Below are positions 4,756-41,555 of a stretch of DNA of 64,000 nucleotides, piece after piece. The DNA comes from Gammaproteobacteria bacterium (lineage in GTDB: Bacteria > Pseudomonadota > Gammaproteobacteria > JAABTG01): contig JAXHLS010000002.1 of NCBI GenBank assembly GCA_034522055.1, positions 1,488,001-1,552,000 on the forward strand, written 5' to 3'. Made by a program: the position numbers and the translations under genes. Every line of letters begins with the position of its first letter. Position 1 is the stretch's first letter. The notes beneath the pieces were generated by a model. It had not been told where the DNA came from and searched no databases. It saw only the letters and a list, made by a program, of their open reading frames with translations.

Positions 4756-5622
4756 TCAGCGCGACAAATATACGGTCAATATCTGCTCGCGTCCGTGGCC
4801 GAGCTCTCGGCTGATGACGAGCCGCGCCGCGCGGTCGATAGCGCGCTGCTCTCGCGTGAACGAACTCGAGGTCGGGCCCCCTGCCGCGGGTGCCTTCCAG
4901 CCGGTGAGCTCCTCGTAACGTCCCTGGGCATAGGCGTGCCGGAGGCCGTGCAGTTTCGAGAGCCCGGCGTTTGCGGTATGGCGCTCGTACACGCGTAGCT
5001 GCTGCCGGTAGTTGCGCTCGGCCGGGATCAGCGAGCCGCGGCCCGCGAGGCGATGGGCGCGATCCAGGATCACCCGCTGCGCCGGGGTGCGCACGGGGAT
5101 CTCGCGGGCCTTGCCGCCCTTGGTCCAGCTGTCCTTTAGCACCAGGTGATCGCCCCGATCCGCGTAGCTGGGTTGGAACTTGATGGCTTCCTCGCGCCGG
5201 AGACCGAAGGCCTGCTGCAGCTCGAGGCTCATCCGGACGTGGGCGTCCTTGACGCAATCGAGGGCCGCGCCGTCGACCTGGCGCGCCTTCGACTCGGTGC
5301 TGACGAACGTCCGCTCCGGGATCCCGTAGTGGTCGTTCTGGCGGGCGATGACGTTCTGCCGGTTCACCTTCTGCGCCCACCAGCGCAACACCGTCATCCG
5401 GTTCTTGATGGTGCCGATGGAGAGCGACTCGGTCTGCCACCGGTTCACCAGCGCTTCCACATGTTTCGGTTTCAGCGACTGCGCGCCCATGCCCCGGAAG
5501 CCCAGCGCATGGAGTTGGTCGGCGATCAGCGACAGCAGGCGCTCGCGGTTGCGCTGGGTCGCATAGCCACCGTCACGGTTGTGGCGACACAGCTGTTTGA
5601 GTTGGTAGTTCAGGTCTCTCAA
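4756..5622 (-). CDS. Tyrosine recombinase / phage-type integrase
   Basis: A 288-residue tyrosine recombinase with a SAM-like N-terminal DNA-binding domain (about residues 1-100) and a catalytic domain with all key residues visible: Arg142/143 in GLRREEA, Lys near 168-171, His225 and Arg228 in LHGLRHAY, His276 in RELGHGR and the nucleophile Tyr285 in ILTVYLSR. It resembles the integrase subfamily that sits inside PFGI-1/SPI-7-type elements beside the pil/tra genes, not the P4-type integrase at the tRNA end, so it may not be the main ICE integrase. The proposed start is TTG at 5622 and is uncertain. A long, highly structured leader lies upstream (about 5640-5880). Confidence 0.8.
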   Translation of the reverse strand: MRDLNYQLKQLCRHNRDGGYATQRNRERLLSLIADQLHALGFRGMGAQSLKPKHVEALVNRWQTESLSIGTIKNRMTVLRWWAQKVNRQNVIARQNDHYGIPERTFVSTESKARQVDGAALDCVKDAHVRMSLELQQAFGLRREEAIKFQPSYADRGDHLVLKDSWTKGGKAREIPVRTPAQRVILDRAHRLAGRGSLIPAERNYRQQLRVYERHTANAGLSKLHGLRHAYAQGRYEELTGWKAPAAGGPTSSSFTREQRAIDRAARLVISRELGHGREQILTVYLSR

Positions 5623-5639
5623 AGTGTTCGATGCTCTGG

Positions 5640-5880
5640 TAAGTGTTTCTGACCACCTGGCAGGCCGTAGCCGGCCAGGTCCTTAGATCAAGGCACGGGT
5701 CACGGGACACCACTCCCGTTCAACCTGAAGATGCCTGGTTGCAGGCAACACCGGTTCTCCCCTGTGGGGGATCGGTCCGGTGCAGACCAACTGGCCCGTT
5801 GTGGGCCGCTCTTCGATAACGCATCACCTCCTTCGTGTTGCTTGAGTTGAATGAATGGTCTTGCTGTAACGCATTACCTC
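5640..5880 (-). promoter_or_regulatory. Structured leader of the recombinase gene with tandem short ORFs
   Basis: Reading down the minus strand towards the recombinase, two short ORFs each follow a GGAGGT-type Shine-Dalgarno: 16 codons (5874 to 5824) and 34 codons (5824 to 5720), overlapping as TGATG. Both begin MRY, and their start regions look duplicated. The 34-codon ORF and the DNA below it can form hairpins: CACCGG/CCGGTG enclosing CCCC/GGGG, TGCCTG/CAGGCA, ACGGG/CCCGT and ACCTGGC/GCCAGGT. I infer a translation- or structure-sensitive leader; no known riboswitch is recognised. Confidence 0.45.
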
Positions 5881-6116
5881 CGTTGAGTTGGGCGAATGGG
5901 ATCTTCGCGATGTTGAGAGAACACCCGTCGAAGCGCCCTGCGGCGGCCGGATCGGGCAGATCGTGGAATGGCGAGCTGGGAGCTCACCGGATGAGTCGAC
6001 CGGAGGGCCGACGATTTTGACGATGGACCGGCGACCGTGAGGTCGGCGCGCTGGATCCGGTCCTTGGCGCGCATGCCCGATTTGACCTAAGCGGTCGAGG
6101 GTGGGCGCCCTCTTTG

Positions 6117-6148
6117 CCACTGAGCCGCAGTGGCCACGGATGAAATCG
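6117..6148 (-). repeat. Copy 1 of an upstream element shared with the DUF3577 operon
   Basis: A stretch of about 30 bp with a CACTG/CAGTG mini-hairpin followed by CCACGGATGAAA. It is nearly identical to 15426-15458. Both copies lie upstream of minus-strand ICE operons with structured leaders, so a shared promoter or regulator site is plausible. Confidence 0.5.
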
Positions 6149-6207
6149 ATCGTGGGCGCCAGTTTAGGAACGCGTCATTCGCGCGTCATCGGGAAAATCG
6201 GCCCTCA

Positions 6208-6478
6208 CGCCGCGCCGTTTACGGTAGCGCCGCCCGCGTCACTACCCCGCTTACGCTCGCTAGTGACACGGGCGACTTCGCGGCGGAGCAGCCCCTATGC
6301 CAGGCATGCGCCTGGCACAGGGGCTGCATCGAGAGGCTCCCGCGGGCCTGCGGCGCGGCTTCACCTGACCACAGGGGCCCACAGGCACCGCGCAAGCGCG
6401 GTCCCGCCCTTGGCGACGCGAGTAAGAAGGCTCGCTTTGCCAAGGGCGGACAAGGCCTGTGGACTCTGTGGACAGCTG
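6208..6478. repeat. Non-coding direct repeat, copy 1
   Basis: The block containing GTTTACGGTAGCGCCGCCC and the following GACCACAGGGGCCCACAGG ... TGTGGACTCTGTGGACAGCT recurs at 6897-7087. Copy 1 has an extra segment of about 80 bp near 6280-6360 that contains its own inverted repeat of a CAGGCAT-rich sequence. Neither copy encodes a credible protein on either strand. The duplication may have arisen from recombination during toxin-antitoxin cassette gain. Confidence 0.7.
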
Positions 6479-6481
6479 ATT

Positions 6482-6570
6482 CGGGAATAAGAGGCGACTT
6501 CGAGCGGCCGACCGGCGGGCGATTATTACACTGTAATAATTTGCCGAGGGGGCACGTCAGGGCGCATCGG
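6482..6570. repeat. 85-bp direct repeat containing a palindrome, copy 1
   Basis: A unit starting GGGAATAAG, continuing GACTTCGAGCGG, then the 19-bp palindrome, then TGCCGAGG and GGCACGTCAGGGCG. The same order recurs at 6670-6754. It is non-coding and brackets toxin-antitoxin remnants. Confidence 0.7.
6522..6540. promoter_or_regulatory. 19-bp palindrome ATTATTACACTGTAATAAT, copy 1
   Basis: A perfect inverted repeat (two 9-bp arms, one central base) in otherwise GC-rich DNA. Identical or one-base variants occur at 6706-6724, 7942-7960 and 17971-17989. A regulator binding site is the simplest reading; a cassette boundary is an alternative. Confidence 0.6.
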
Positions 6571-6607
6571 CGCCCAGTATGGTGGGCGGGCGCAGTTCGG
6601 CACGACT

Positions 6608-6673
6608 CTACTTCAAGCCCAACCGCACTTTGGCCTCCACAAGCGGCAGTTCCCTTCCGGTCTCGAGTTCGGG
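6608..6673 (-). pseudogene. C-terminal remnant of an antitoxin gene
   Basis: The last ~21 codons of an antitoxin, ending GRELPLVEAKVRLGLK, remain in frame with their stop. They match the C terminus of the intact-looking small antitoxin at 8064-8210 apart from a few substitutions. The upstream part is lost at the GGGAATAA repeat junction. Confidence 0.6.
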
Positions 6674-6754
6674 AATAAGGGGAGACTTCGAGCGGCGGGC
6701 GGGCGATTATTACAGTGTAATAATCTGCCGAGGCGGCACGTCAGGGCGAGTCTT
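6670..6754. repeat. 85-bp direct repeat containing a palindrome, copy 2
   Basis: Second copy of the unit at 6482-6570, diverged at several positions, with the palindrome at its centre. Confidence 0.7.
6706..6724. promoter_or_regulatory. 19-bp palindrome ATTATTACAGTGTAATAAT, copy 2
   Basis: The same palindrome with G instead of C at the central base on the plus strand, which is the reverse complement of copy 1. It also supplies the stop codon of the neighbouring toxin remnant. Confidence 0.6.
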
Positions 6755-6880
6755 CGTCCGGCACGTCGAGCAGGCGCTCGCTACGCCAGACTCGAACGAC
6801 ACGAATCCGCGTACCAGGTCCGTATCAAATTCCAGATCGCTAAGTGCGGATTCGGTGATCCGAATGGCAACCTTCGCCAT
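6710..6880 (-). pseudogene. Truncated ParE/RelE-type toxin remnant
   Basis: A 56-codon frame starting MAKVAIRITESALSDLE, which looks like the N terminus of a ParE/RelE toxin, then diverging into sequence unlike the family. The end of an antitoxin frame (LGSK, stop at 6885-6887) lies just upstream in the normal antitoxin-toxin order, 4 nt before the toxin ATG. The frame ends inside the 19-bp palindrome. It is best read as a deleted toxin-antitoxin pair whose 3' part was replaced by the 85-bp repeat. Confidence 0.5.
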
Positions 6881-6896
6881 GCTCCTACTTCGAGCC

Positions 6897-7087
6897 CAGC
6901 CGTTTACGGTAGCGCCGCCCGCGTCACTACCACGCTTGCGCTCACTAGTGACACGAGCGGCGTCGCGGCTTCACCTGACCACAGGGGCCCACAGGGACCG
7001 CGCAAGCGCGGTCCCGCCCTGGCGACGCGAGTGGGAAGGCTCGCTTTGCCAAGGGCGGGCAAGGCCTGTGGACTCTGTGGACAGCTG
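6897..7087. repeat. Non-coding direct repeat, copy 2
   Basis: Second copy of the block at 6208-6478, lacking the ~80-bp internal segment. It ends directly before the 3' end of the ParE toxin gene. Apart from the repeats and remnants listed here, I see no intact gene between 5880 and 7111. Confidence 0.7.
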
Positions 7088-7111
7088 CGCGAGAATTTAT
7101 TCCTTCGTCCG

Positions 7112-7408
7112 TTACAGGAATTTGTAACCCGCCTCGCGCTGGCTTCTGACCGCCAACACGAAGACGGTATCGACCTCAGGAACATAGCGGTAGAGGGCAA
7201 CATAACCGCGAGATTGCCGACCGATGATCAGTTCCCGGGTATCGTGGCGAGTTGGGCGTCCCAGCAGGGGATTGGATTCAAGCACATTGATTGCCTGGAT
7301 GATCTGATCGATACGCGCAGCTGCCTCCGCGACTTCGTTTTGTGCGAGGTGTTCCAGTATTCGATCGAAATCGTCGGCAACACGCGCCGCCAGCTCAATG
7401 CGCGCCAT
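7112..7408 (-). CDS. parE: ParE-family toxin
   Basis: A 98-residue RelE/ParE-superfamily toxin. Visible features are the N-terminal MARIELAARVADDFDRILEH helix pair, the PLLGRPTR loop, and the C-terminal strand motif GYVALYRYVPEVDTVFVLAVR typical of ParE. Such toxins usually poison DNA gyrase. It follows the RHH antitoxin gene with a 12-nt gap, so the two form a complete module that would stabilise the ICE. Its length is normal for the family. Confidence 0.85.
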   Translation of the reverse strand: MARIELAARVADDFDRILEHLAQNEVAEAAARIDQIIQAINVLESNPLLGRPTRHDTRELIIGRQSRGYVALYRYVPEVDTVFVLAVRSQREAGYKFL

Positions 7409-7420
7409 CGCGACGAATGA

Positions 7421-7708
7421 TCAGCGGGAAAGCTTACGTGCCACCGGAGGAGTCGACTTCTTACCGGCTACGCGATCTTCCAGATAGGTACGCATCTCCG
7501 ACCAAGGGATCGTCTCTCCCGATGCGACGATCTGAGCATAGCGATCTCCTGCCGTCTCGTGGAATTCGTTGCGTCGCTCTTCCCCATCCACGCGTTCAGC
7601 AATCGCATCGAGGATGAACGCGTGCGAGGTCATGCCTGCCCGCTCTGCGGCACGCGCAATACGATTTTTGAGATCATCGGGCAAACGAACGGTCGTCGTC
7701 GGCATCAT
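7421..7708 (-). CDS. parD: ParD/CopG-type antitoxin
   Basis: A ribbon-helix-helix antitoxin of about 95 residues beginning MMPTTTVRLPDDLKNRIARA; TTTVRLPDDL is the DNA-contacting strand and the two helices follow (AERAGMTSHAFILDAIAERV). The C-terminal part (EFHETAGDRYAQIVASGET) would wrap the toxin. The start is the first of two adjacent ATGs, with GGGAG upstream; a longer version from 7720 is less likely. Antitoxin-first order implies autorepression of the pair. Confidence 0.82.
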   Translation of the reverse strand: MMPTTTVRLPDDLKNRIARAAERAGMTSHAFILDAIAERVDGEERRNEFHETAGDRYAQIVASGETIPWSEMRTYLEDRVAGKKSTPPVARKLSR

Positions 7709-8063
7709 GCAGGCTCCCAAGCATTGCTTTGGCGAAATTGTAGCACATAAGTGCTACTATCCAAGATGACCCGTACGGGTTGATGCCATCGCTCCACCGG
7801 TGGTCCGCGCCATCACCGATCTTGACAGGGGCTACCTCGAAGTAGGTTCGGCTATGCGTCTGAACGTACGTTGAACTCGAAGAGGTCGCTACCTGACCGG
7901 CAACCGAGGTCGAAAGCGGCCACCAATAGCCATCCGCAGGAATTATTACACTGTAATAATTTGGTGGCCGGCTTCCGGGCGGCTCGTCGACGGTGTGCTT
8001 TGGCAACGCCGCGGCCGGACCGATGCACCTATTCGATCCGAGTCGGCGCGTTTCGGCATGAGT
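7709..8063. other. Gene-poor spacer with an inverted GAACGTAC motif
   Basis: No credible gene is seen. It holds the AT-rich parD promoter region (7735-7765), a CTGAACGTACGTT motif near 7859 that reappears inverted near 8904-8916, and the palindrome at 7942. Confidence 0.5.
7942..7960. promoter_or_regulatory. 19-bp palindrome ATTATTACACTGTAATAAT, copy 3
   Basis: Identical to copy 1. It lies between the ParDE module and the next toxin-antitoxin cluster, about 100 bp beyond the small antitoxin gene. Confidence 0.6.
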
Positions 8064-8210
8064 CTACTTCAAGCCCAACCGCGCTTTGGCCTCCGCGAGC
8101 GGCAGTTCCCGTCCGGCCTTGAGGTCGGCAAGACCGGCGATGACGGCTCGCATGAACGCCCGTTCGTCTTGGGCCATCGCCGAGTCAGTCACCGACTTCA
8201 CATCTGCCAC
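8064..8210 (-). CDS. Small antitoxin (48 residues), toxin partner lost
   Basis: A short minus-strand frame, probably started by GTG at 8210, ending LKAGRELPLAEAKARLGLK. The Glu-Leu-Pro/AEAK tail is typical of toxin-binding ends of small antitoxins. The same tail occurs as a remnant at 6608-6673. No toxin follows it downstream, so it is either an orphan or a remnant. The frame stays open upstream without a clear ATG, and the true start is uncertain. Confidence 0.45.
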   Translation of the reverse strand: MADVKSVTDSAMAQDERAFMRAVIAGLADLKAGRELPLAEAKARLGLK

Positions 8211-8285
8211 GTCCCGGCCGCGGCGGGTTCTCGCAGGCGTCAAGCCAGCCAGCCTTGGGCGACGCCCTTCGGTGCCATGGTCTCG

Positions 8286-10059: not shown

Positions 10060-12285
10060 ATGACGCACGAAGAATCCCGGTTCGGCCCTTCCTGGCCTTG
10101 CACAATGACGCTAATTTTGGTAGCACTGCTAACCGGAAATACGGCAGCGCAGCCCCAGAGGCCGATCGAATCCGAGGCCGAGACAGGGGCGGTTATGTTA
10201 GAGCCGATCTCGATAGTGGGCAGCATCGAAACGTCGAGCCAGGAGGCAGTGCGGCGGAAAGCTGACGCACCCAACGCGATGGAAGTTATCGACGCCGAGC
10301 AGCTCCAGCAGTTCAACGAGCAGGCGCTTGGCGACGCGCTGCGGCGGCTGCCGGGCGTCACATTTGACGGCGCCAACCGCGCGCGCGAGGTTCGGTTGCG
10401 TGGCTTGCCCGGTGAATATACGCAGGTTCTGATCAACGGCAGGCCGCTGATCGATGGCGAGTCCCGGCGCAACTTCGAGGTCGACCGGATACCCACCGGG
10501 CTGGTCGAGCATGTGGAAGTGATCCGTGCGCCACGGGCTATCTACAACGGGCAGGGTGCTGCCGGCACCGTCAACATCGTGCTGAAAAATGGCGTTGATT
10601 CCCTGTCGGATAGCGAGCTGGCGGTAGGCGTTGGCTATCTCGAAGACAACGATGAAATGGGCGAGGTAACGTTTTCGCACGGCGAGAGAATCGGTCCCCT
10701 GGAAGCTGCGCTGGCCGGTTCGCTGCAGCGCTTTCGGCGCAGCGAGAGCAAGGATGCGTTAGAATTTGACGCAGGCGGCACGCCCGATGGTGGCGTGCTG
10801 GAGCTCAACGAACGGCGTTTCGACCAGGTCAACCTGATTCCGCGTTTTGCACTGGAAACCGAATATGCCGGTCGCTTCGAGTTCGAGCCATTCTATCTGC
10901 GCACCAAGGAGTTTCGAGACGATATCGAGACCGACCTGGAAGACGACCAGGTAACCACCGATCGAGTGAGCGACGAGCGCCGCGAAAGAGTCCGGGAAAG
11001 CTACGGCTTTCGGGCCGACTGGAAGCGTGCCATCGGCGCATCCGCGCAGCTACGCGTGGGCTTCGACTGGCAGCAGGGTGAGACCGACACCGATCGTGAT
11101 GAAACCCGCTTCAACGCCGACGGCAGTGTCGACCGCGAACGGCAGCGCACCGAGCTGATTGAGCTCTCGATGATCCGGCCGGAAGCCGTCCTGAATATAG
11201 CCGCCGGCGCCCACGACATCAGCTTCGGCGTCGGCGCCGAGCTGCGGGAACACGATGAGACCAATTCCGAGATCCGCAACGGCGCGTTGCGCCCGCCGCG
11301 CGAGGATCGCATCTTCGACATCGACGAAGACGTGTTGTTCGCTTTCGCTGAAGACATCTGGCAGGCCAACGAACGTCTCAGCACAACCGGCGGCTTGCGC
11401 CTGGAAAGCTCGGATACCGAAGCAACCGATTTCTTCGGTACGACCACCTCGGAGGACGTCGCATTCCTGCTGCCTTCGCTGAACGTGGTATTCGCTGCCA
11501 CACCCAATACCGACCTGCGCCTCGGCGTTGCGCGGACCTTGCGCCGGCCCGACCTGCGGACGCTTTCGCCAGCGGTTGACGAGCAGGACGGCACTCCTGC
11601 CGAACCGGATGTACAGGGCAACCCGAACCAGGAACCCGAATCCATCTGGGGCCTGGACGCTGGCGTAGACTATTACTTCGCCAATGATCGCGGCTACGTT
11701 TCACTAAATCTGTTTGCGCGTGAATTCGAAGACAAGATCGAATTGGTCACCGCGCAGGTCAGCGGGCGTTTTGTTGCCTCGCCGCAGAATGTCGGAGACG
11801 CTCGCGCCGCCGGGGTCGAAGTTGCGGGCCGCGTGCCGCTGGACGCGATCGGCTTCAACAACACCACTCTATGGGGCAATGTGACCTATACCGATTCACG
11901 CGTCGACGAAATTGGCGGCGGTTCAAGGCGTTTTCTGAATCAGCCGGATGCTGTCGCAAATCTGGGCGTCGACTACTTTTTCGTGCCCTGGCAAACGACG
12001 TTCGGGCTTTCCGTCAATCACACAACTTCGGTCGATCAGACTCAGCGCCTGGCCAACGGGGGATTTCTCGACCAATCGATAGAGGAACGGACCCGGCTGG
12101 ACCTGTCGGTCAAAACTCAGGTGACTGAAAAGCTCGACGTGTCTATCAGCGCAACCAATCTTCTGGACCAGACCGAGGACCGGGTCGATCGGGTGCTTGA
12201 TGGAACCGGTGCGGTCGAAGCCGTTACGCTTACCCGAGAACCCACGTATCGCAGCGTATTCGCACGCGTGAAGTGGCGCTTCTGA
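10060..12285 (+). CDS. TonB-dependent outer-membrane receptor
   Basis: A 741-residue receptor with a signal peptide (about residues 1-31, ending NTAAQ), a TonB-box-like LEPISIVGS segment, a plug domain (VIDAEQLQQFNEQALGDALRR ... GGAGTVNIVLKNG-like region) and a 22-strand barrel ending VFARVKWRF, with the C-terminal aromatic Phe needed for BAM recognition. It would import a ferric siderophore or similar large ligand using TonB energy; the substrate is not evident. An AT-rich promoter lies at 10000-10035 with a weak Fur-box resemblance. The next gene, a PepSY-type membrane protein, overlaps its end, supporting an iron role. Codon use is less GC-rich than that of the ICE backbone, fitting cargo. 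Confidence 0.9.
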   Translation: MTHEESRFGPSWPCTMTLILVALLTGNTAAQPQRPIESEAETGAVMLEPISIVGSIETSSQEAVRRKADAPNAMEVIDAEQLQQFNEQALGDALRRLPGVTFDGANRAREVRLRGLPGEYTQVLINGRPLIDGESRRNFEVDRIPTGLVEHVEVIRAPRAIYNGQGAAGTVNIVLKNGVDSLSDSELAVGVGYLEDNDEMGEVTFSHGERIGPLEAALAGSLQRFRRSESKDALEFDAGGTPDGGVLELNERRFDQVNLIPRFALETEYAGRFEFEPFYLRTKEFRDDIETDLEDDQVTTDRVSDERRERVRESYGFRADWKRAIGASAQLRVGFDWQQGETDTDRDETRFNADGSVDRERQRTELIELSMIRPEAVLNIAAGAHDISFGVGAELREHDETNSEIRNGALRPPREDRIFDIDEDVLFAFAEDIWQANERLSTTGGLRLESSDTEATDFFGTTTSEDVAFLLPSLNVVFAATPNTDLRLGVARTLRRPDLRTLSPAVDEQDGTPAEPDVQGNPNQEPESIWGLDAGVDYYFANDRGYVSLNLFAREFEDKIELVTAQVSGRFVASPQNVGDARAAGVEVAGRVPLDAIGFNNTTLWGNVTYTDSRVDEIGGGSRRFLNQPDAVANLGVDYFFVPWQTTFGLSVNHTTSVDQTQRLANGGFLDQSIEERTRLDLSVKTQVTEKLDVSISATNLLDQTEDRVDRVLDGTGAVEAVTLTREPTYRSVFARVKWRF

Positions 12286-28184: not shown

Positions 28185-28454
28185 ATGGGTAAGAAACCGG
28201 CGTTAACCCCCGACCAGCGTGCGGCGCTAGTGCTGCGGATGCTGAGCAAAGAAGAGCCGGCCGCGCAGATCGCGCCGCGTGCCGGGATCTCGGAGCAGAC
28301 CTTGTACCGTTGGCGTGAGGAGTTCTTCAGCGCGAGGAAGCTGGCGCTGGCCGGACGTGGCGCAGAGCACGACCAGGTCAAGGAGATCGGCCGGCTGAAG
28401 TCGGCGGTGGCCCAGGGAGCGGACGGTGACCACACTATTCATCAGCCACAGTAG
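28185..28454 (+). pseudogene. Transposase OrfA (IS3-type), truncated by the TIR gene
   Basis: After GAAGGAG, an ATG opens MGKKPALTPDQRAALVLRML then AGISEQTLYRWREEFFSARK, a standard helix-turn-helix OrfA. The last ~10 codons (from about 28420) no longer resemble a transposase and overlap the TIR protein start. The element's orfB is absent. Confidence 0.65.
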
Positions 28455-31218
28455 CAAGGACAAGGCCTGGGCTCAGCGCGTGCATCAGGCGCTGTCCGAC
28501 GCCGGTTATCAGTGCCTGTTTCTGGACTCGCACCCCGACGACGGCATCCACGCCGGCGCCGACTGGGAGCGCATGCTCTACCAACGTCTACGCCAGAGCC
28601 GTGGAGTGATCGTGCTCTGTACCGCCAACTGGCTCAGCTCCCCCTGGTGTGTTGCCGAGGCGATAATGGCTCGGGGGCGCAAGCGGCGCGTCTTCCTGGT
28701 CGCCGCGGATGACATCGTTGACAGGCGCCAAGCGAAGGGTGATCAAGAAGGGGCCCCGACGATCCCAGAATTTCTGACGGACAGGCAGTTCGTCAGTCTC
28801 GCCGGACTCACAGAGAAGGAGGCCGTCCAGCGACTGCTGCAAGGGCTGGAAAGGGAGGGCCTGAAGAAGCAAGACTTCAAGCTGCCCGAGCGACCCTACC
28901 CCGGCCTGGCGCCCTTCCAGGAGACGGACGCCGCCGTCTTCTTCGGCCGCGATGATGACACCGACCACGTTATTGATCGACTGCACCGCCGCCGCAAGGG
29001 CGACGCCAAAGGATTTGTGCTTCTCCTTGGAGCTTCGGGCTGCGGCAAGTCGTCTCTGGTGCGCGCCGGCGTGATCCCGCAGCTGCGCCGCGCAGGCAAG
29101 GACGAGGCGGCTGGTCCACGCTGGATCGTTGCTCCCCCAGTTCTCGCCGGCCGAGGGATCGAAGGGCTTGCCCTCGCGTTCGCGGACGCCTTCCGGCGTG
29201 CCGAGAAGCCGCGAGCATTGCAAGACGTTCGCGGACGAATGACCAGCTCCGGCGATCTGCGGCTGCTCGCAGGCGAACTACTCGACGCCCACCACGCAGC
29301 GAACGGCAGCGTCCTGCTCGTCCTGGACCAGCTCGAGGAGGTTTTGGACACCCCAGAGGAATCCCATGTTCGAGCGGCCCTGGCGCTGCTGCTGGAGGCA
29401 AGCGCTGACTTCGGCAGCCCCCTCGTTGTCCTGGCCACCATGCGGTCAGACTTCCTTAACGCGTTCCAGCTCTTCGAAGGAGCGGCGGACCGCTACGAGG
29501 CGGTCACACTCGATCCGATGCGCCGCGACCACTTCGGGCAAGTGATTGAGGGCCCGGCCGAGCGTTTCGGCCTCGACCTCGATCCCGGACTTGCTACGCG
29601 CATGGTGCAGGACACCGCCTACAGCGACGCCCTACCGCTGCTCGCCTTCACCGTGCGGAAACTTTATGGGCAATGCAAAAGGCAGGGCCGGCTGACCTTA
29701 GCCGCCTATCAGGCGCTCGGCGGTGTCTCCGGCGCCATCGAGCACGCTGCGGACAGCATCCTGTATGAGACGGGATACAAAGACTTGACACAATCGGATC
29801 CTAGGATGCGCGACCTGCGACGGGCCTTCTACAGCTTGGCCCAGGTGGGCGAGGAAGGCCGGTTCACCCGCCGCATCGCCCGCTGGTCGCGTATGCCCGC
29901 CTCCTGCGACACCATTCTAAATCGCTTAGTCAACGAGCGATTGCTGGTGTCGAGCAGCGCCAGTGGCGAACCGATCCTCAGCGTCGCCCACGAGGCCCTG
30001 TTCCGCGTCTGGAATACGCTCCATTGTTGGCTGCTGCAGGACCGCAGTGCTCTCAGTCTGCGCGCCCAGATAGAAGAGGCCGCTACCGCGTGGAGCGTGG
30101 AACCGCGGCCGGAGATCCACGCTCAGCTTCTCTGGCCGGAGGAGCGCATCCTGGACTCCGTGAGCAAGATCGCTCGCAGCGGCGTGTCGTTAGAGGACGT
30201 GGCAGACCCTAAGCTTGTGCGCGCCTTTGCAGGCCCCACCGATCCAGATATCCTGACGCAGTTGCCGGCCCTGAGTACGGGTCAGGATAGCGAGCGAGGC
30301 AGCGGCCCCTTCGGAGATGCCTGGCACCTACCACTCAGCCATGCGGCCCGATCCAGCGTTGGCGTGCGCCTAGCAATTCTCGACGACCACCGCCCCGGGG
30401 TCGGTCTGCGTCCTGACGGTTTGCCCGACATCGATTGGTGTCGAATCGACGGAGGGGAGGTGACCATCGAGATCCGCGTTAATCCGGATGATCCCAACTC
30501 GGAAGTCGCCGATACGGTAACGCAAGCCGTCAACCCATTCTGGATAGCCCGTTACCCGGTGACGATCACGCAATTCCAGACTTTTGTCGTGGAGTGCTTT
30601 CGGAAAGGCGACGATCAGACGTGTAAGTGGCATCTACCAGATGGGGTTCCTATCAGCTTGCTGAAAAACAATCCGCCGCCCAAGCACCGAGCGCGCTACG
30701 GCAACCACCCGGCGGACATGGTCAACTGGTGGGATGCCATGGCCTTCTGCCAATGGCTAAGCATACGCATCGGATACGATGTACGGCTCCCGACCGAATA
30801 CGAGTGGCAATGCGCGGCGATCGGTGCAAACACTCGACGGGGCAAGCCCGAGAAAATCTATCCGTGGGGCACGGATTGTGACCAGCAATGCGAGCCCTGG
30901 CGCGCCAATACCACCGACAGCGAACTCCACCGCTCGACGGCAGTCGGGCTTTATCCCCTCGGGGCCTCCACCGCCGGCGTGTTCGACATGGCTGGAACGG
31001 TCTGGGAATGGTGTCTGAATGCCTTCGAAGACCCCGATGACAACAGTTTACCAGGTGGCGACCAGGACCGTCGGGTGCTCCGCGGTGGATCCTGGGGCAA
31101 CTATCTGGCCTTCGCGTGCCCCACCTACCGCTATGGGCGTTACACGGACTTGCGTCGCTTTAGCTTCGTGGGGTTTCGGGTTATGTGCTCGACCCCATGT
31201 TTGGGCACTAAACTCTGA
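28426..31218 (+). CDS. TIR-STAND NTPase-FGE (SUMF1-like) multidomain protein, putative defence gene
   Basis: A 930-residue protein in three parts. Residues 1-145 form a TIR domain (LFISHSSKDKAW; candidate catalytic Glu78 in SSPWCVAEAI). Residues 155-600 are an nSTAND-type NTPase (PYPGLAPFQETDAAVFFGRD, Walker A GASGCGKS at 202-209, Walker-B-like VLLVLDQLEEVL). Residues about 670-925 are a formylglycine-generating-enzyme/SUMF1-like C-type lectin fold (FWIARYPVTITQFQTFV, RLPTEYEWQCA, FDMAGTVWEWC, VLRGGSWGNY). TIR domains often hydrolyse NAD+ on activation; STAND modules sense and oligomerise; here the FGE domain would be the sensor or peptide-binding module. The GTG start lies inside a truncated transposase gene. 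An abortive-infection role is inferred. Confidence 0.88.
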   Translation: MTTLFISHSSKDKAWAQRVHQALSDAGYQCLFLDSHPDDGIHAGADWERMLYQRLRQSRGVIVLCTANWLSSPWCVAEAIMARGRKRRVFLVAADDIVDRRQAKGDQEGAPTIPEFLTDRQFVSLAGLTEKEAVQRLLQGLEREGLKKQDFKLPERPYPGLAPFQETDAAVFFGRDDDTDHVIDRLHRRRKGDAKGFVLLLGASGCGKSSLVRAGVIPQLRRAGKDEAAGPRWIVAPPVLAGRGIEGLALAFADAFRRAEKPRALQDVRGRMTSSGDLRLLAGELLDAHHAANGSVLLVLDQLEEVLDTPEESHVRAALALLLEASADFGSPLVVLATMRSDFLNAFQLFEGAADRYEAVTLDPMRRDHFGQVIEGPAERFGLDLDPGLATRMVQDTAYSDALPLLAFTVRKLYGQCKRQGRLTLAAYQALGGVSGAIEHAADSILYETGYKDLTQSDPRMRDLRRAFYSLAQVGEEGRFTRRIARWSRMPASCDTILNRLVNERLLVSSSASGEPILSVAHEALFRVWNTLHCWLLQDRSALSLRAQIEEAATAWSVEPRPEIHAQLLWPEERILDSVSKIARSGVSLEDVADPKLVRAFAGPTDPDILTQLPALSTGQDSERGSGPFGDAWHLPLSHAARSSVGVRLAILDDHRPGVGLRPDGLPDIDWCRIDGGEVTIEIRVNPDDPNSEVADTVTQAVNPFWIARYPVTITQFQTFVVECFRKGDDQTCKWHLPDGVPISLLKNNPPPKHRARYGNHPADMVNWWDAMAFCQWLSIRIGYDVRLPTEYEWQCAAIGANTRRGKPEKIYPWGTDCDQQCEPWRANTTDSELHRSTAVGLYPLGASTAGVFDMAGTVWEWCLNAFEDPDDNSLPGGDQDRRVLRGGSWGNYLAFACPTYRYGRYTDLRRFSFVGFRVMCSTPCLGTKL

Positions 31219-33784: not shown

Positions 33785-34963
33785 TCAAGATAAAAAGCGA
33801 CTCAACTGTGATACGGCGCACACATGCTTTACCGCGTACGCCTGGCCAACCTTCTGGATGTCCAGGATGTGCTGCACGGAGTCCATGACCTGCACGTGCT
33901 CCGGGTCGATGTCTGACAGGTTCAGAGCGTCCAGTCCAGACTGGCTTACGTCCGGATCATAACGAACATATGTGAACAGTTTCTGACCCGTCCAGTTCGG
34001 TAACCCCTTCTCGGGTGCCACCATATCCCCGATTTCGCGGTCTAGGACCGGACCGAACCGACATTCGCCCAGCATTCGGCACGCCATGTCCCAGCCCGCG
34101 CTGGCCGCATTCATAAGTGCCGAAGGAATGTTCTTCGCGTGGTCGAGCAGCCAGAGATCACGCGCCTGCAGATCAGGACGCGCCTTGGCGGCGGCGCCGG
34201 TTCCTACAGAGACCACCAGAAGCCGGTCCGTACCCATCGGCCAATCGACCTTGTAGGGAGCGGCGGTCGCCATCTGGAAGGCTAGGAATGCCGGATTGTT
34301 GTAGCTCGTCACGCCTCCGTCAACGAAGATGAACGGGTACTCCTGGTTGGTTCCGGGAGCGAAGGTCACGACTTCCGGGGGGAAAAAGGTTGGGGCGGCC
34401 GTACTCGCCCGCACCAGCTGCCAGAGGGGCAGGTCCAAATTGCAGTCCAGGCGCTGGCGCTGGTTGTACATGGCCCGAGGATTGTTGGAGACTGGCCACG
34501 GAGAGTCAGTCGTGTGATTCCGCAGAACCATCATGAGCAGAGTGCGCAGACCTGGGTCGCCCAGGGTGGCGGGCAGCGTGTCGCTCGCGTAGCCGAGGGC
34601 TTTGTTGAGCTCTGCGCGCAGCATCCTGGCAAGTGGCTCATCGTTGTAGCTGTAGCGCAGCCGATTGAAGAGAGACGCCTTATCAAACATCTGCTGCCCG
34701 CTGCTCACGTAGAAGGTGCGGATCTGATCCATTGACATTCCAGTGGAGACGCAGGTCGCAATCACTGCTCCTGTGCTGGTACCGCATACAAAGTCGAACC
34801 AGTCCGACAGAACCAAGTCCGCCTTGTCGAGTTGGGCGCGCAGATCCGATTCCAGTTTCGCGAGGATCTCCACGCTGATGAGCCCCAGGATACCGCCGCC
34901 GTCACAGGCGAGGATCTTTTTGGGACCATCGGATTCCAAACAGCTTTTCACATGCTCATTCAT
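33785..34963 (-). CDS. Patatin-like phospholipase, putative defence effector
   Basis: A 392-residue patatin/CapV-like lipid hydrolase. The oxyanion-hole glycines are at 22-24 (ACDGGGILGL), the nucleophile Ser63 is in GTSTG and the catalytic Asp215 is in FVDGG, so the Ser-Asp dyad is complete. Bacterial patatins of this type degrade membrane phospholipids and act as effectors of CBASS and related abortive-infection systems. No cyclic-nucleotide synthase is nearby; instead the upstream same-strand gene is an NDT/TPR/SLOG protein, which could provide the signal. The intergenic gap of 149 bp leaves co-transcription unproven. Confidence 0.87.
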   Translation of the reverse strand: MNEHVKSCLESDGPKKILACDGGGILGLISVEILAKLESDLRAQLDKADLVLSDWFDFVCGTSTGAVIATCVSTGMSMDQIRTFYVSSGQQMFDKASLFNRLRYSYNDEPLARMLRAELNKALGYASDTLPATLGDPGLRTLLMMVLRNHTTDSPWPVSNNPRAMYNQRQRLDCNLDLPLWQLVRASTAAPTFFPPEVVTFAPGTNQEYPFIFVDGGVTSYNNPAFLAFQMATAAPYKVDWPMGTDRLLVVSVGTGAAAKARPDLQARDLWLLDHAKNIPSALMNAASAGWDMACRMLGECRFGPVLDREIGDMVAPEKGLPNWTGQKLFTYVRYDPDVSQSGLDALNLSDIDPEHVQVMDSVQHILDIQKVGQAYAVKHVCAVSQLSRFLS

Positions 34964-35112: not shown

Positions 35113-37098
35113 TCACAACTTCCGGGCATCGATCCAAGTCACCTCCCCCGTACGCTCCTTGACCTCGTTGTACAAATGCTCCGTGCCCCCCGGCTCGTCG
35201 CCTCCAGCGCCGTTCCAGAGACAAATGAAATGCAGCCTGTCCAGCCCCCAGGCCAGCGCTGTATAGAGGAGCCAGAGGTTGCAGCGCTCGTAGGGGTAGC
35301 CCTTTCCTACGCCTTTCGGAATCTCGCCGAGTGCCTCGGGCGCGGCGCGGATGGCTGCCGCGAGGTGCTTCCTGGCTTCCAGGTAACGGCCGCGCCACGT
35401 TTCGCCGCCACGCACCACGGATTTCTGAATGAACTCCGGCTCCCGGAACGGCTGAAGCCAGTGCACCTTTGTACCGCGCGCTTGGCAAGCCTCGGTAAAG
35501 AGCAGGTCGCCTCCGCAGGCGCCCTGGGTCAATGCCAGATCCGCAGGGCCGGCCCCATGTGCGTCCAGAGCCTCGGCGATGCGTTGCGCTGCGGCGGGCC
35601 CCTTCTCGGGCGAAAAACGCGGCTCCAGGCGATCCGGGGCGTCGATCATGTGCCCGCTGAACAAGAATACCCGCCGGGGTGTCCACTCGGAGTTCGGCTT
35701 GGTGAGGCGTTCCATTGCGCGCTCGAAAGCAGCCCGGCCGGCCTCAACAGCAGCGGGGCGAAAGCCAAGATCAACCAGGAGCTCCAGCTGCGAGCGGCTG
35801 GAGTCCAAGGCGAACCAGTCCTTGTCGTTGCGCGCGATCGCCTCTTTGTAAGCCGCAGTAACCTTCTCCGGGGTCCCTATCAGCACCTCGAGATCCCCAA
35901 GGGTTGCCAGTGCCCAGAAATGCTTGTGCTCGTCCGGCTCGTTCATCGCGGCGAAGCGCACCGCCCCGGCCAGCGCGCTCATCTCCGGCGCGTACCGTGC
36001 ATCGCCGGTGAGGTCCCGGTACAGGTGCATGAGCGTGAGCGCATTAATGCCCGAGTAGTAGTGGCGGGGATCGGCGCGAAAGCCCTGGGTGTAGCTGTAA
36101 ATGGCCGCGCGCAGCAGCGCATCCTCGTAGGCGGCGTCGCCGCGCATCTCCTCCTCCGTGCGGCCGTGCTGGCGCCAGACCCTGGTCCAGGTATCCTTGT
36201 CTACCCGTCCCAACAGGGCCCAAAACTCCACGTGCTCCGGGTGTTTCGCCAAAGCGCCTCGGTAGTGGGCGCGCGCGCGTTCCGGCGAGTGACCATGTGC
36301 ACCAGCCAATGCGAGCCGCTGGAGGCACATGCCCTGCTCCTCCAGCCCCGTTAGGTTATCCGGCTCGATCTTCAACCCGCGCTCGAGCTGCTCAAGAGCA
36401 AAGTCGAAGTGACTAACTTTGCGCAGCGCCTGCCCGGCGCGGATCCAGGCTTCGGCACGGAATGCGGCGACCGGCGCCTCGTCCGCCAGCACGAGAATGT
36501 CCCCCACGCAGCGGTACTTACAGGCCAACTCCACCCGGAGCTCCCAGTCGTCATAGCGCTCCCAGAAGTCGCGCGCGTCGCCGATCCGCAAAGTCTTCCA
36601 GTCGGGCTCCTGCAGATGTGGCAGCAAATGATAGACCGGGCTCTGCTTGCGGCCGTGCCAGGACTCGAGAGTCTTCTCGACCATACCCTTGAGCTTTGCC
36701 TTGTCCTCCTCAACCGTCACCGGGTCCGGCGCGCCGTCCTTGAGCCCGTAGCGCAGCTTGCGGTCGGTGTAGACGTCGAAAGCCGTAGGGATCGCCCCAC
36801 TGGAGATCAGCACCACGCCGCGGGCGCGCAGGCCGTGCCGCACCCCCAGCTCGTACCAGACATTGGGGTTGTCCGCGCTGAGGTCCGCGACCACCAGGTC
36901 CGCGATCAGCAGTTCCTGGAACATGTCCGCGCGGATGTCGCCAGCCCGCTGTTCCTGGTCGGCGCGGAAAACCTCAAGGCCCGCGGCCTCGAGGGCAGGC
37001 CGGATAAGCTCCTTGTAGACGCGGTTGAAATCGACCTCGGCACCCTGCCGGTTCGTTTTCATGCCGAAAGGCATTGCGATGAATGCGTGCAGCTTCAT
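35113..37098 (-). CDS. NDT-like / TPR-sensor / SLOG domain protein, putative nucleotide-signalling defence protein
   Basis: 661 residues. Residues 1-110 form a nucleoside-2-deoxyribosyltransferase-like Rossmann domain (FIAMPFG, FRADQEQRAGDIRADMFQ, LIADLVVADLSADNPNVWYELG, with a conserved Glu near 83). Residues about 170-450 are helical repeats resembling the TRAFs-binding/TPR-S module. Residues about 470-650 look like a SLOG domain (RRVFLFSGHMID, LTQGACGGDLLFTEA). In published conflict-system surveys, SLOG and NDT-like domains bind or cleave nucleotide signals. The ATG at 37098 is preferred because GGGAAG then sits 6 nt upstream. Confidence 0.78.
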   Translation of the reverse strand: MKLHAFIAMPFGMKTNRQGAEVDFNRVYKELIRPALEAAGLEVFRADQEQRAGDIRADMFQELLIADLVVADLSADNPNVWYELGVRHGLRARGVVLISSGAIPTAFDVYTDRKLRYGLKDGAPDPVTVEEDKAKLKGMVEKTLESWHGRKQSPVYHLLPHLQEPDWKTLRIGDARDFWERYDDWELRVELACKYRCVGDILVLADEAPVAAFRAEAWIRAGQALRKVSHFDFALEQLERGLKIEPDNLTGLEEQGMCLQRLALAGAHGHSPERARAHYRGALAKHPEHVEFWALLGRVDKDTWTRVWRQHGRTEEEMRGDAAYEDALLRAAIYSYTQGFRADPRHYYSGINALTLMHLYRDLTGDARYAPEMSALAGAVRFAAMNEPDEHKHFWALATLGDLEVLIGTPEKVTAAYKEAIARNDKDWFALDSSRSQLELLVDLGFRPAAVEAGRAAFERAMERLTKPNSEWTPRRVFLFSGHMIDAPDRLEPRFSPEKGPAAAQRIAEALDAHGAGPADLALTQGACGGDLLFTEACQARGTKVHWLQPFREPEFIQKSVVRGGETWRGRYLEARKHLAAAIRAAPEALGEIPKGVGKGYPYERCNLWLLYTALAWGLDRLHFICLWNGAGGDEPGGTEHLYNEVKERTGEVTWIDARKL

Positions 37099-37238
37099 GG
37101 TCATCTTCCCTGCAGGGCTATGCCCCCTCGCCTCCAGTTGGCAAAGCTACGGGGCCTTCGCCCATGCGTTCTGTGAGAGGCTCGGTTCAGGGCGGGTCGT
37201 AGTCACGGTGAGCGGTCGCCGGGCAATGGAGCATTGCC

Positions 37239-41479: not shown

Positions 41480-41555
41480 TGGTGGGCCGTGTTGGATTCG
41501 AACCAACGACCACCTGATTAAAAGTCAGATGCTCTACCAACTGAGCTAACGGCCC
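41480..41555 (-). tRNA. tRNA-Lys (anticodon UUU)
   Basis: A 76-nt cloverleaf: acceptor GGGCCGT/ACGGCCC, D-arm AGCTCAGTTGGTAGAGC, anticodon loop CTTTTAA within ACTGA/TCAGG-type stem sequences, T-arm GGTTCGAATCC, discriminator A and an encoded CCA. It marks the boundary between accessory DNA and conserved chromosome and is of a type commonly used as an ICE attachment site. Confidence 0.95.

Follow-up and report, generated by a model that had tools for sequence, protein, structure and literature searches.

A TIR-nSTAND1-FGE protein on an integrative element of a gammaproteobacterium is a probable single-chain immune receptor with an apparently fixed FGE-fold sensor

The 64,000-nucleotide stretch of DNA that we analysed (the window) carries, at 28426-31218 on the forward strand, an open reading frame with a GTG start that encodes a protein of 930 residues in which Pfam identifies three domains. 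A TIR_2 domain (residues 5-138; 28438-28839; E 4.7e-19), which takes a TIR-like alpha/beta form in the structural model, is followed by an nSTAND1 NTPase (residues 157-561; 28894-30108; PF20703, E 1.8e-87) and by an FGE/C-type-lectin-like domain (residues 672-919; 30439-31182; PF03781, E 4.9e-39). All three lie far above their Pfam cut-offs, nSTAND1 scoring 294.9 bits against a cut-off of 27.1. Given a frame of 930 codons, a third-position GC of 0.74, and matches at 1e-18 or better for each domain, the three-domain open frame is far beyond chance. Glu-78 (codon 28657-28659) stands within WCVAEAI (residues 74-80), and the NTPase has a Walker A motif, GASGCGKSS, at residues 202-210 and a Walker B-like LLVLDQLEE at residues 297-305. 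With the three domains in place and both Glu-78 and Walker A intact, the proposal of a TIR-STAND-FGE fusion in one protein, made in an earlier sequence-only reading of this DNA, is borne out. Two alignments of relatives also delineate a conserved linker, GVRLxxLDDxRPGVGLRxDGLPDIDW (30361-30440), which runs into the FGE domain and is common to nSTAND1-FGE relatives, a related form being present in NACHT-FGE proteins. Near the C-terminus, the segment RGGSW...GFR (residues 886-918; 31081-31179) is homologous to the variable region that DGRs rewrite in relatives.

The gene begins inside the frame of an IS transposase OrfA remnant (HTH_Tnp_1, Pfam E 6.5e-7; 28185-28454, forward strand), which is present as a single copy in the genome and extends 29 bases past the start of the TIR gene. 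This remnant likely supplies the present 5' context of the gene, whose translation it may drive or couple. A search for a sigma-70 promoter-like site found none and, because the gene also sits behind the IS remnant, its expression is uncertain. These features, together with a long end branch in the tree described below, would suit a decaying and unexpressed passenger from which the upstream IS remnant has removed the promoter. We consider such decay improbable, however, because the 930-codon frame and all of the key motifs are intact, GC at the codon positions is normal for a coding gene, a Shine-Dalgarno-like GGGAG (28415-28419) is located 6 nt before the GTG, and the remnant's own ribosome-binding site would permit coupled translation.

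A tRNA-Lys gene is located at 41480-41555 on the reverse strand, and its last 48 bases (41480-41527), corresponding to the 3' part of the tRNA, are repeated perfectly as an att-type repeat at G000:C2:1473425-1473472, where there is no second tRNA gene. The two 48-bp repeats bound an integrative element of about 56 kb, of which the gene studied here is cargo. The element encodes a TraD/TraG-like coupling protein, an integrase, ParM, AcaB, RadC, DUF2857 and an FlhC-like protein, a gene set of the kind present in integrative conjugative elements. The cargo section that holds the gene also contains an IS66 transposase, a patatin-like phospholipase, a TPR-S protein, a PIN_12 protein and a nuclease, and the defence-like neighbours (patatin, TPR-S and PIN) all fall within the 56-kb element. 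The patatin-like phospholipase (33785-34963, reverse strand) resembles CBASS phospholipase effectors, its score with the NCBIfam CBASS_lipase model being 105 bits, below the cut-off of 200, and among the scanned genes none of its neighbours was recognised as a cyclase. The TPR-S (tetratricopeptide sensor) protein (35113-37104, reverse strand) has an N-terminal stretch that is weakly similar to defence TIR effectors (PADLOC E 5e-6).

A model of the full-length protein was obtained with a middling pLDDT of 75.7, in which the FGE domain folded poorly. Structure searches with this model, in which the part covered by each match was assigned from the families matched, relate the NTPase part to ORC/Cdc6, Apaf-1, CED-4 and the SIR2-STAND filament EfAvs5, and the C-terminal part to ToxD and FGE proteins. 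Glu-78 aligns with the conserved glutamate of the WCxxE motif (alpha-C) in SpbK, SNC1 and other TIRs. This residue is catalytic in TIR NADases, and the TIR domain is predicted to have NADase activity on this basis. The geometry of an NADase pocket is not established because the domain has no close solved relative, its matches to PDB sequences being weak (best E 0.03). The suggestion that the TIR and STAND halves belong to an immune receptor nonetheless gains support from the domains and motifs and from the modelled likeness of the STAND half to Apaf-1, CED-4 and EfAvs5.

The motif RGGSWGNY begins at residue 886, and the sequence-only reading had taken GGSWGNY (residues 887-893) for a complete FGE signature. 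The motif is indeed present, but GGSW is conserved across the FGE/C-type-lectin family and is not a catalytic signature. When aligned to human FGE (a reference segment containing Cys-336 and Cys-341, identical to PDB 1y1e), the two catalytic cysteines correspond to Asn-892 and Ala-897, so that both positions are substituted; the first block after GGS is ungapped, and Cys-898 falls one column off the catalytic position. Moreover, across the whole 5.14-Mb genome no sulfatase domain (PF00884) scores above its Pfam cut-off. A catalytic FGE was rejected on these two grounds and, judged from the aligned residues, the domain is not an FGE. The earlier call to look for the catalytic cysteine pair and for a sulfatase substrate nearby thus returned neither. 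One might still suppose that the domain is a working enzyme of the formylglycine-generating or sulfoxide-synthase type, and the whole protein a modification enzyme under regulation, given the strength of the PF03781 match, the presence of EgtB and OvsA among the single-sequence PDB matches, and a fold that matches true FGE at Z 23-24. This idea is hardly tenable when set against the lost cysteine pair, the genome free of sulfatase domains above cut-off, the lack in the protein's Pfam scan of the DinB-type iron-binding domain seen in EgtB, OvoA and SenA, and the DGR diversification of the homologous segment in relatives, which suits binding more than catalysis. Scores with the NCBIfam EgtB, SenA and OvoA models are 43-61 bits, the cut-offs being 360-420.

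Because the FGE domain folded poorly in the full-length model, it was modelled separately from 61 aligned rows, giving a pLDDT of 86.5. Among the best structural matches of this model are PorK (Z 25.5) and the DGR variable protein TvpA (PDB 2y3c; Z 25.1, 2.6 Å), with ToxD, PvdO and true FGE (Z 23-24) also in this group and the phage protein Mtd (PDB 1yu0, 1yu1 and 1yu3) at Z 16. Counting matches within one Z unit as tied, we conclude that the fold is common to FGE and DGR proteins, and it is the missing cysteine pair that sets the enzyme apart. The comparison with FGE and DGR proteins proposed earlier for the C-terminal region therefore places TvpA level with true FGE. The loss of the cysteine pair, the absence of a sulfatase, the likeness to TvpA and Mtd, and the diversification seen in relatives make it a well-supported inference that the domain is a non-catalytic ligand-recognition module, as had been surmised from the sequence.

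As part of placing the protein among its relatives, we scanned 84,980 species genomes with a three-row alignment, which yielded 313 relatives, and retained 78 loci; a contig scan using the single protein as query had found none. A search of 95 near relatives returned no full-length copy other than the one studied. About 11 further ORFs combine a TIR (or SEFIR-like) domain with nSTAND1 and FGE, as detected with a purpose-built TIR profile and nSTAND1 matching, and Pfam confirms the TIR-nSTAND1-FGE combination at six loci (L095, L100, L120, L141, L151 and L117, the last with SEFIR overlapping). These proteins occur in Methylococcaceae, Accumulibacter, Thauera and Anaerolineae. The N-terminal place is taken by bDLD3 (L081), EAD8 (L085), DUF4062 (L075) or a SEFIR-like domain in other nSTAND1-FGE proteins, while WD40 or TPR replaces FGE in the TIR-nSTAND1 relatives L065, L066 and L076. 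Both ends of the protein are, from these effector and sensor variants, evidently swappable modules. In a tree of 69 nSTAND1-FGE proteins, the studied protein sits on a long branch within a clade of 15 rows (SH-aLRT 99) made up of Methylococcaceae, Competibacteraceae and Accumulibacter proteins; one member, L085, is targeted by a DGR.

Several other loci recovered in this work show variations on the layout. In a related genome, L070 (1891-4712, reverse strand) has a TIR-NACHT-FGE arrangement across two neighbouring frames, which we take only as an indication of a recurrent layout. The Accumulibacter contiguus locus L151 encodes a TIR-FGE protein without STAND (10273-11610, reverse strand) as well as a TIR-nSTAND1-FGE protein (5368-8238, forward strand), and the two share a single template repeat and a single DGR reverse transcriptase. 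On a Chlorohelix plasmid, L075 (5326-11330, forward strand) has two tandem DUF4062-nSTAND1-FGE-type genes whose FGE end segments differ at DGR-variable positions, although the 14-kb locus contains no template repeat.

Diversification of the sensor by DGRs is evident in the relatives. In ten comparisons of variable region and template repeat (VR/TR) at nine loci, mismatches at template adenines number 9-21, against no more than 3 at other positions; the fraction of mismatches falling at template adenines is 21/21 in L104, 18/19 in L085, 13/13 and 20/20 in L151, and 19/22 in L141. Several of the loci with template repeats, and a few others, encode a DGR-type reverse transcriptase (RT) with an xGNLTSQ motif (e.g. 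IGNLTSQ). Across the relatives, entropies of about 3-3.5 bits are reached at some 15 positions enclosed by RGGSW and GFR, whereas the flanks are invariant or nearly so. For the gene studied here, no template repeat was found in the 64-kb window, and a BLAST search of the genome with 31060-31215 returns that segment alone. Group II intron-type reverse transcriptases have the motif QGxxxSP and DGR-type enzymes xGxxxSQ, and every readable domain-4 motif among the 41 RVT_1 hits of the genome is QGxxxSP, none being of the DGR type; the unread hits include three short fragments (L025-L027), and some high-copy hits were judged through copies of equal score. Group II intron-type RTs are very numerous in this 5.1-Mb genome, with RVT_1 at 41 places and several apparently identical copies.

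A DGR target in its own genome was rejected for this gene because neither a template repeat, in the window or the genome, nor a DGR-type RT motif, among the readable RVT_1 hits, was found, and on the same grounds the sensor of this copy appears to be fixed rather than being rewritten. Additional indications come from the segment itself. Ten of its codons correspond, in a by-eye comparison with the relatives' templates, to template Asn codons, and their third bases are C in five cases, T in four and G in one, compared to C at 93 of 103 such positions in confirmed targets. In addition, the conserved ARAA core of the relatives is ACPT in the studied protein. The third-base pattern and the diverged core suggest that the segment is not under rewriting. 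An active, hypermutated antigen receptor might instead be diversified in trans, by an RT and template located on another element or in a missing part of the assembly, since L085 of the same clade and the TIR-bearing L141 and L151 are DGR targets and the carrying element is mobile. We judge this to be very unlikely, given that the genome is 98% complete and the variable segment finds only itself, that the RT motifs read are of the group II intron type, and that the mixed third bases and the replaced core depart from what is seen in confirmed targets and relatives. As to how a fixed sensor arose, we tentatively raise the possibility of a DGR-orphaned receptor, descended from hypermutated receptors, that lost its retroelement and is now fixed and horizontally transferred on the integrative element. 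The DGR-bearing member of the clade is compatible with such an origin.

The architecture itself is not new. Kaur, Burroughs, Iyer and Aravind (2021; eLife 10:e70394, PMC8195603) described bacterial and archaeal proteins that pair STAND with FGS. The NTPases they list include nSTAND1, their N-terminal effectors include TIR, and FGS is proposed as an invader-binding domain that is often DGR-diversified. Dore et al. (2024; PNAS, PMC10907252) reported nSTAND1 and NACHT proteins that carry FGE/CLec domains, in some cases also TIR, and are diversified by DGRs, and stated that STAND-associated CLec domains had not yet been tested experimentally. Neither paper (PMC8195603, PMC10907252) reports an activity, ligand or phage phenotype for any nSTAND1-FGE protein. 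The studied receptor belongs to the published nSTAND1-FGS class, and the novelty that the sequence-only reading had implied for its architecture falls away, since it had already been described in 2021 and is found in several phyla.

Comparison with known systems defines the particular features of this copy. It has the N-terminal effector, nSTAND1, C-terminal FGS (PF03781) and single-gene organisation of the nSTAND1/NACHT-FGS proteins in PMC8195603; many of those proteins, however, feature EADs together with partner effectors, and a DGR is often present, whereas here TIR is fused directly and neither a partner gene nor a DGR was recognised for the receptor. The STAND sensors of PMC10907252 (Thiohalocapsa PB-PSB1 DGR 6 and clade 5D) likewise combine nSTAND1 with a C-terminal FGE/CLec domain and a homologous RGGSW...GFR segment, but are DGR-diversified and occur in multicellular bacteria. 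In the TIR-nSTAND1-WD40 and -TPR proteins, the TIR and nSTAND1 halves are up to 40% identical to those of the receptor (L065), although the sensor is a beta-propeller or TPR array rather than an FGE fold. Avs proteins have the same effector-STAND-sensor plan, and EfAvs5 is among the matches of the STAND half, yet they differ in sensor fold and no Avs model matches the protein in PADLOC at E 0.01. Finally, Treponema denticola TvpA and the Bordetella phage tropism protein Mtd resemble the C-terminal domain in fold and in having a loop region varied by DGRs, but both lack TIR and STAND.

Taken together, we favour, at a probability of somewhat more than three in four, a single-protein, NLR-like immune receptor in which ligand binding by the FGE fold leads in turn to oligomerisation of nSTAND1 driven by ATP, activation of the TIR domain and loss of NAD+. 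The ligand of the FGE/C-type-lectin-like domain would come from an invader or be induced by infection, and would be held at the loop surface that is diversified by DGRs in relatives. Its binding would free the nSTAND1 NTPase to take up ATP and form oligomers, and the clustered N-terminal TIR domains might then use Glu-78 to cleave NAD+ or to make an NAD-derived product, either of which could lead to arrest or death of the cell and, presumably, to an anti-phage effect.

The present work makes modest additions to the published class, namely a DGR-less copy, the mobile element on which it lies, and TIR-nSTAND1-FGE relatives, found directly, that have TR/VR pairs. With effector, switch and sensor in one chain, the receptor offers a compact, single-gene setting in which to test the published proposal that the FGE fold of STAND proteins serves as an antigen sensor and, because its sensor is apparently fixed, a single ligand could be sought. 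The DGR-bearing TIR-nSTAND1-FGE relatives L141 and L151 provide a natural counterpart, allowing fixed and diversifying sensors to be set side by side. If the DGR-orphaned origin is true, the receptor would resemble a germline-fixed receptor that arose from a hypermutating one.
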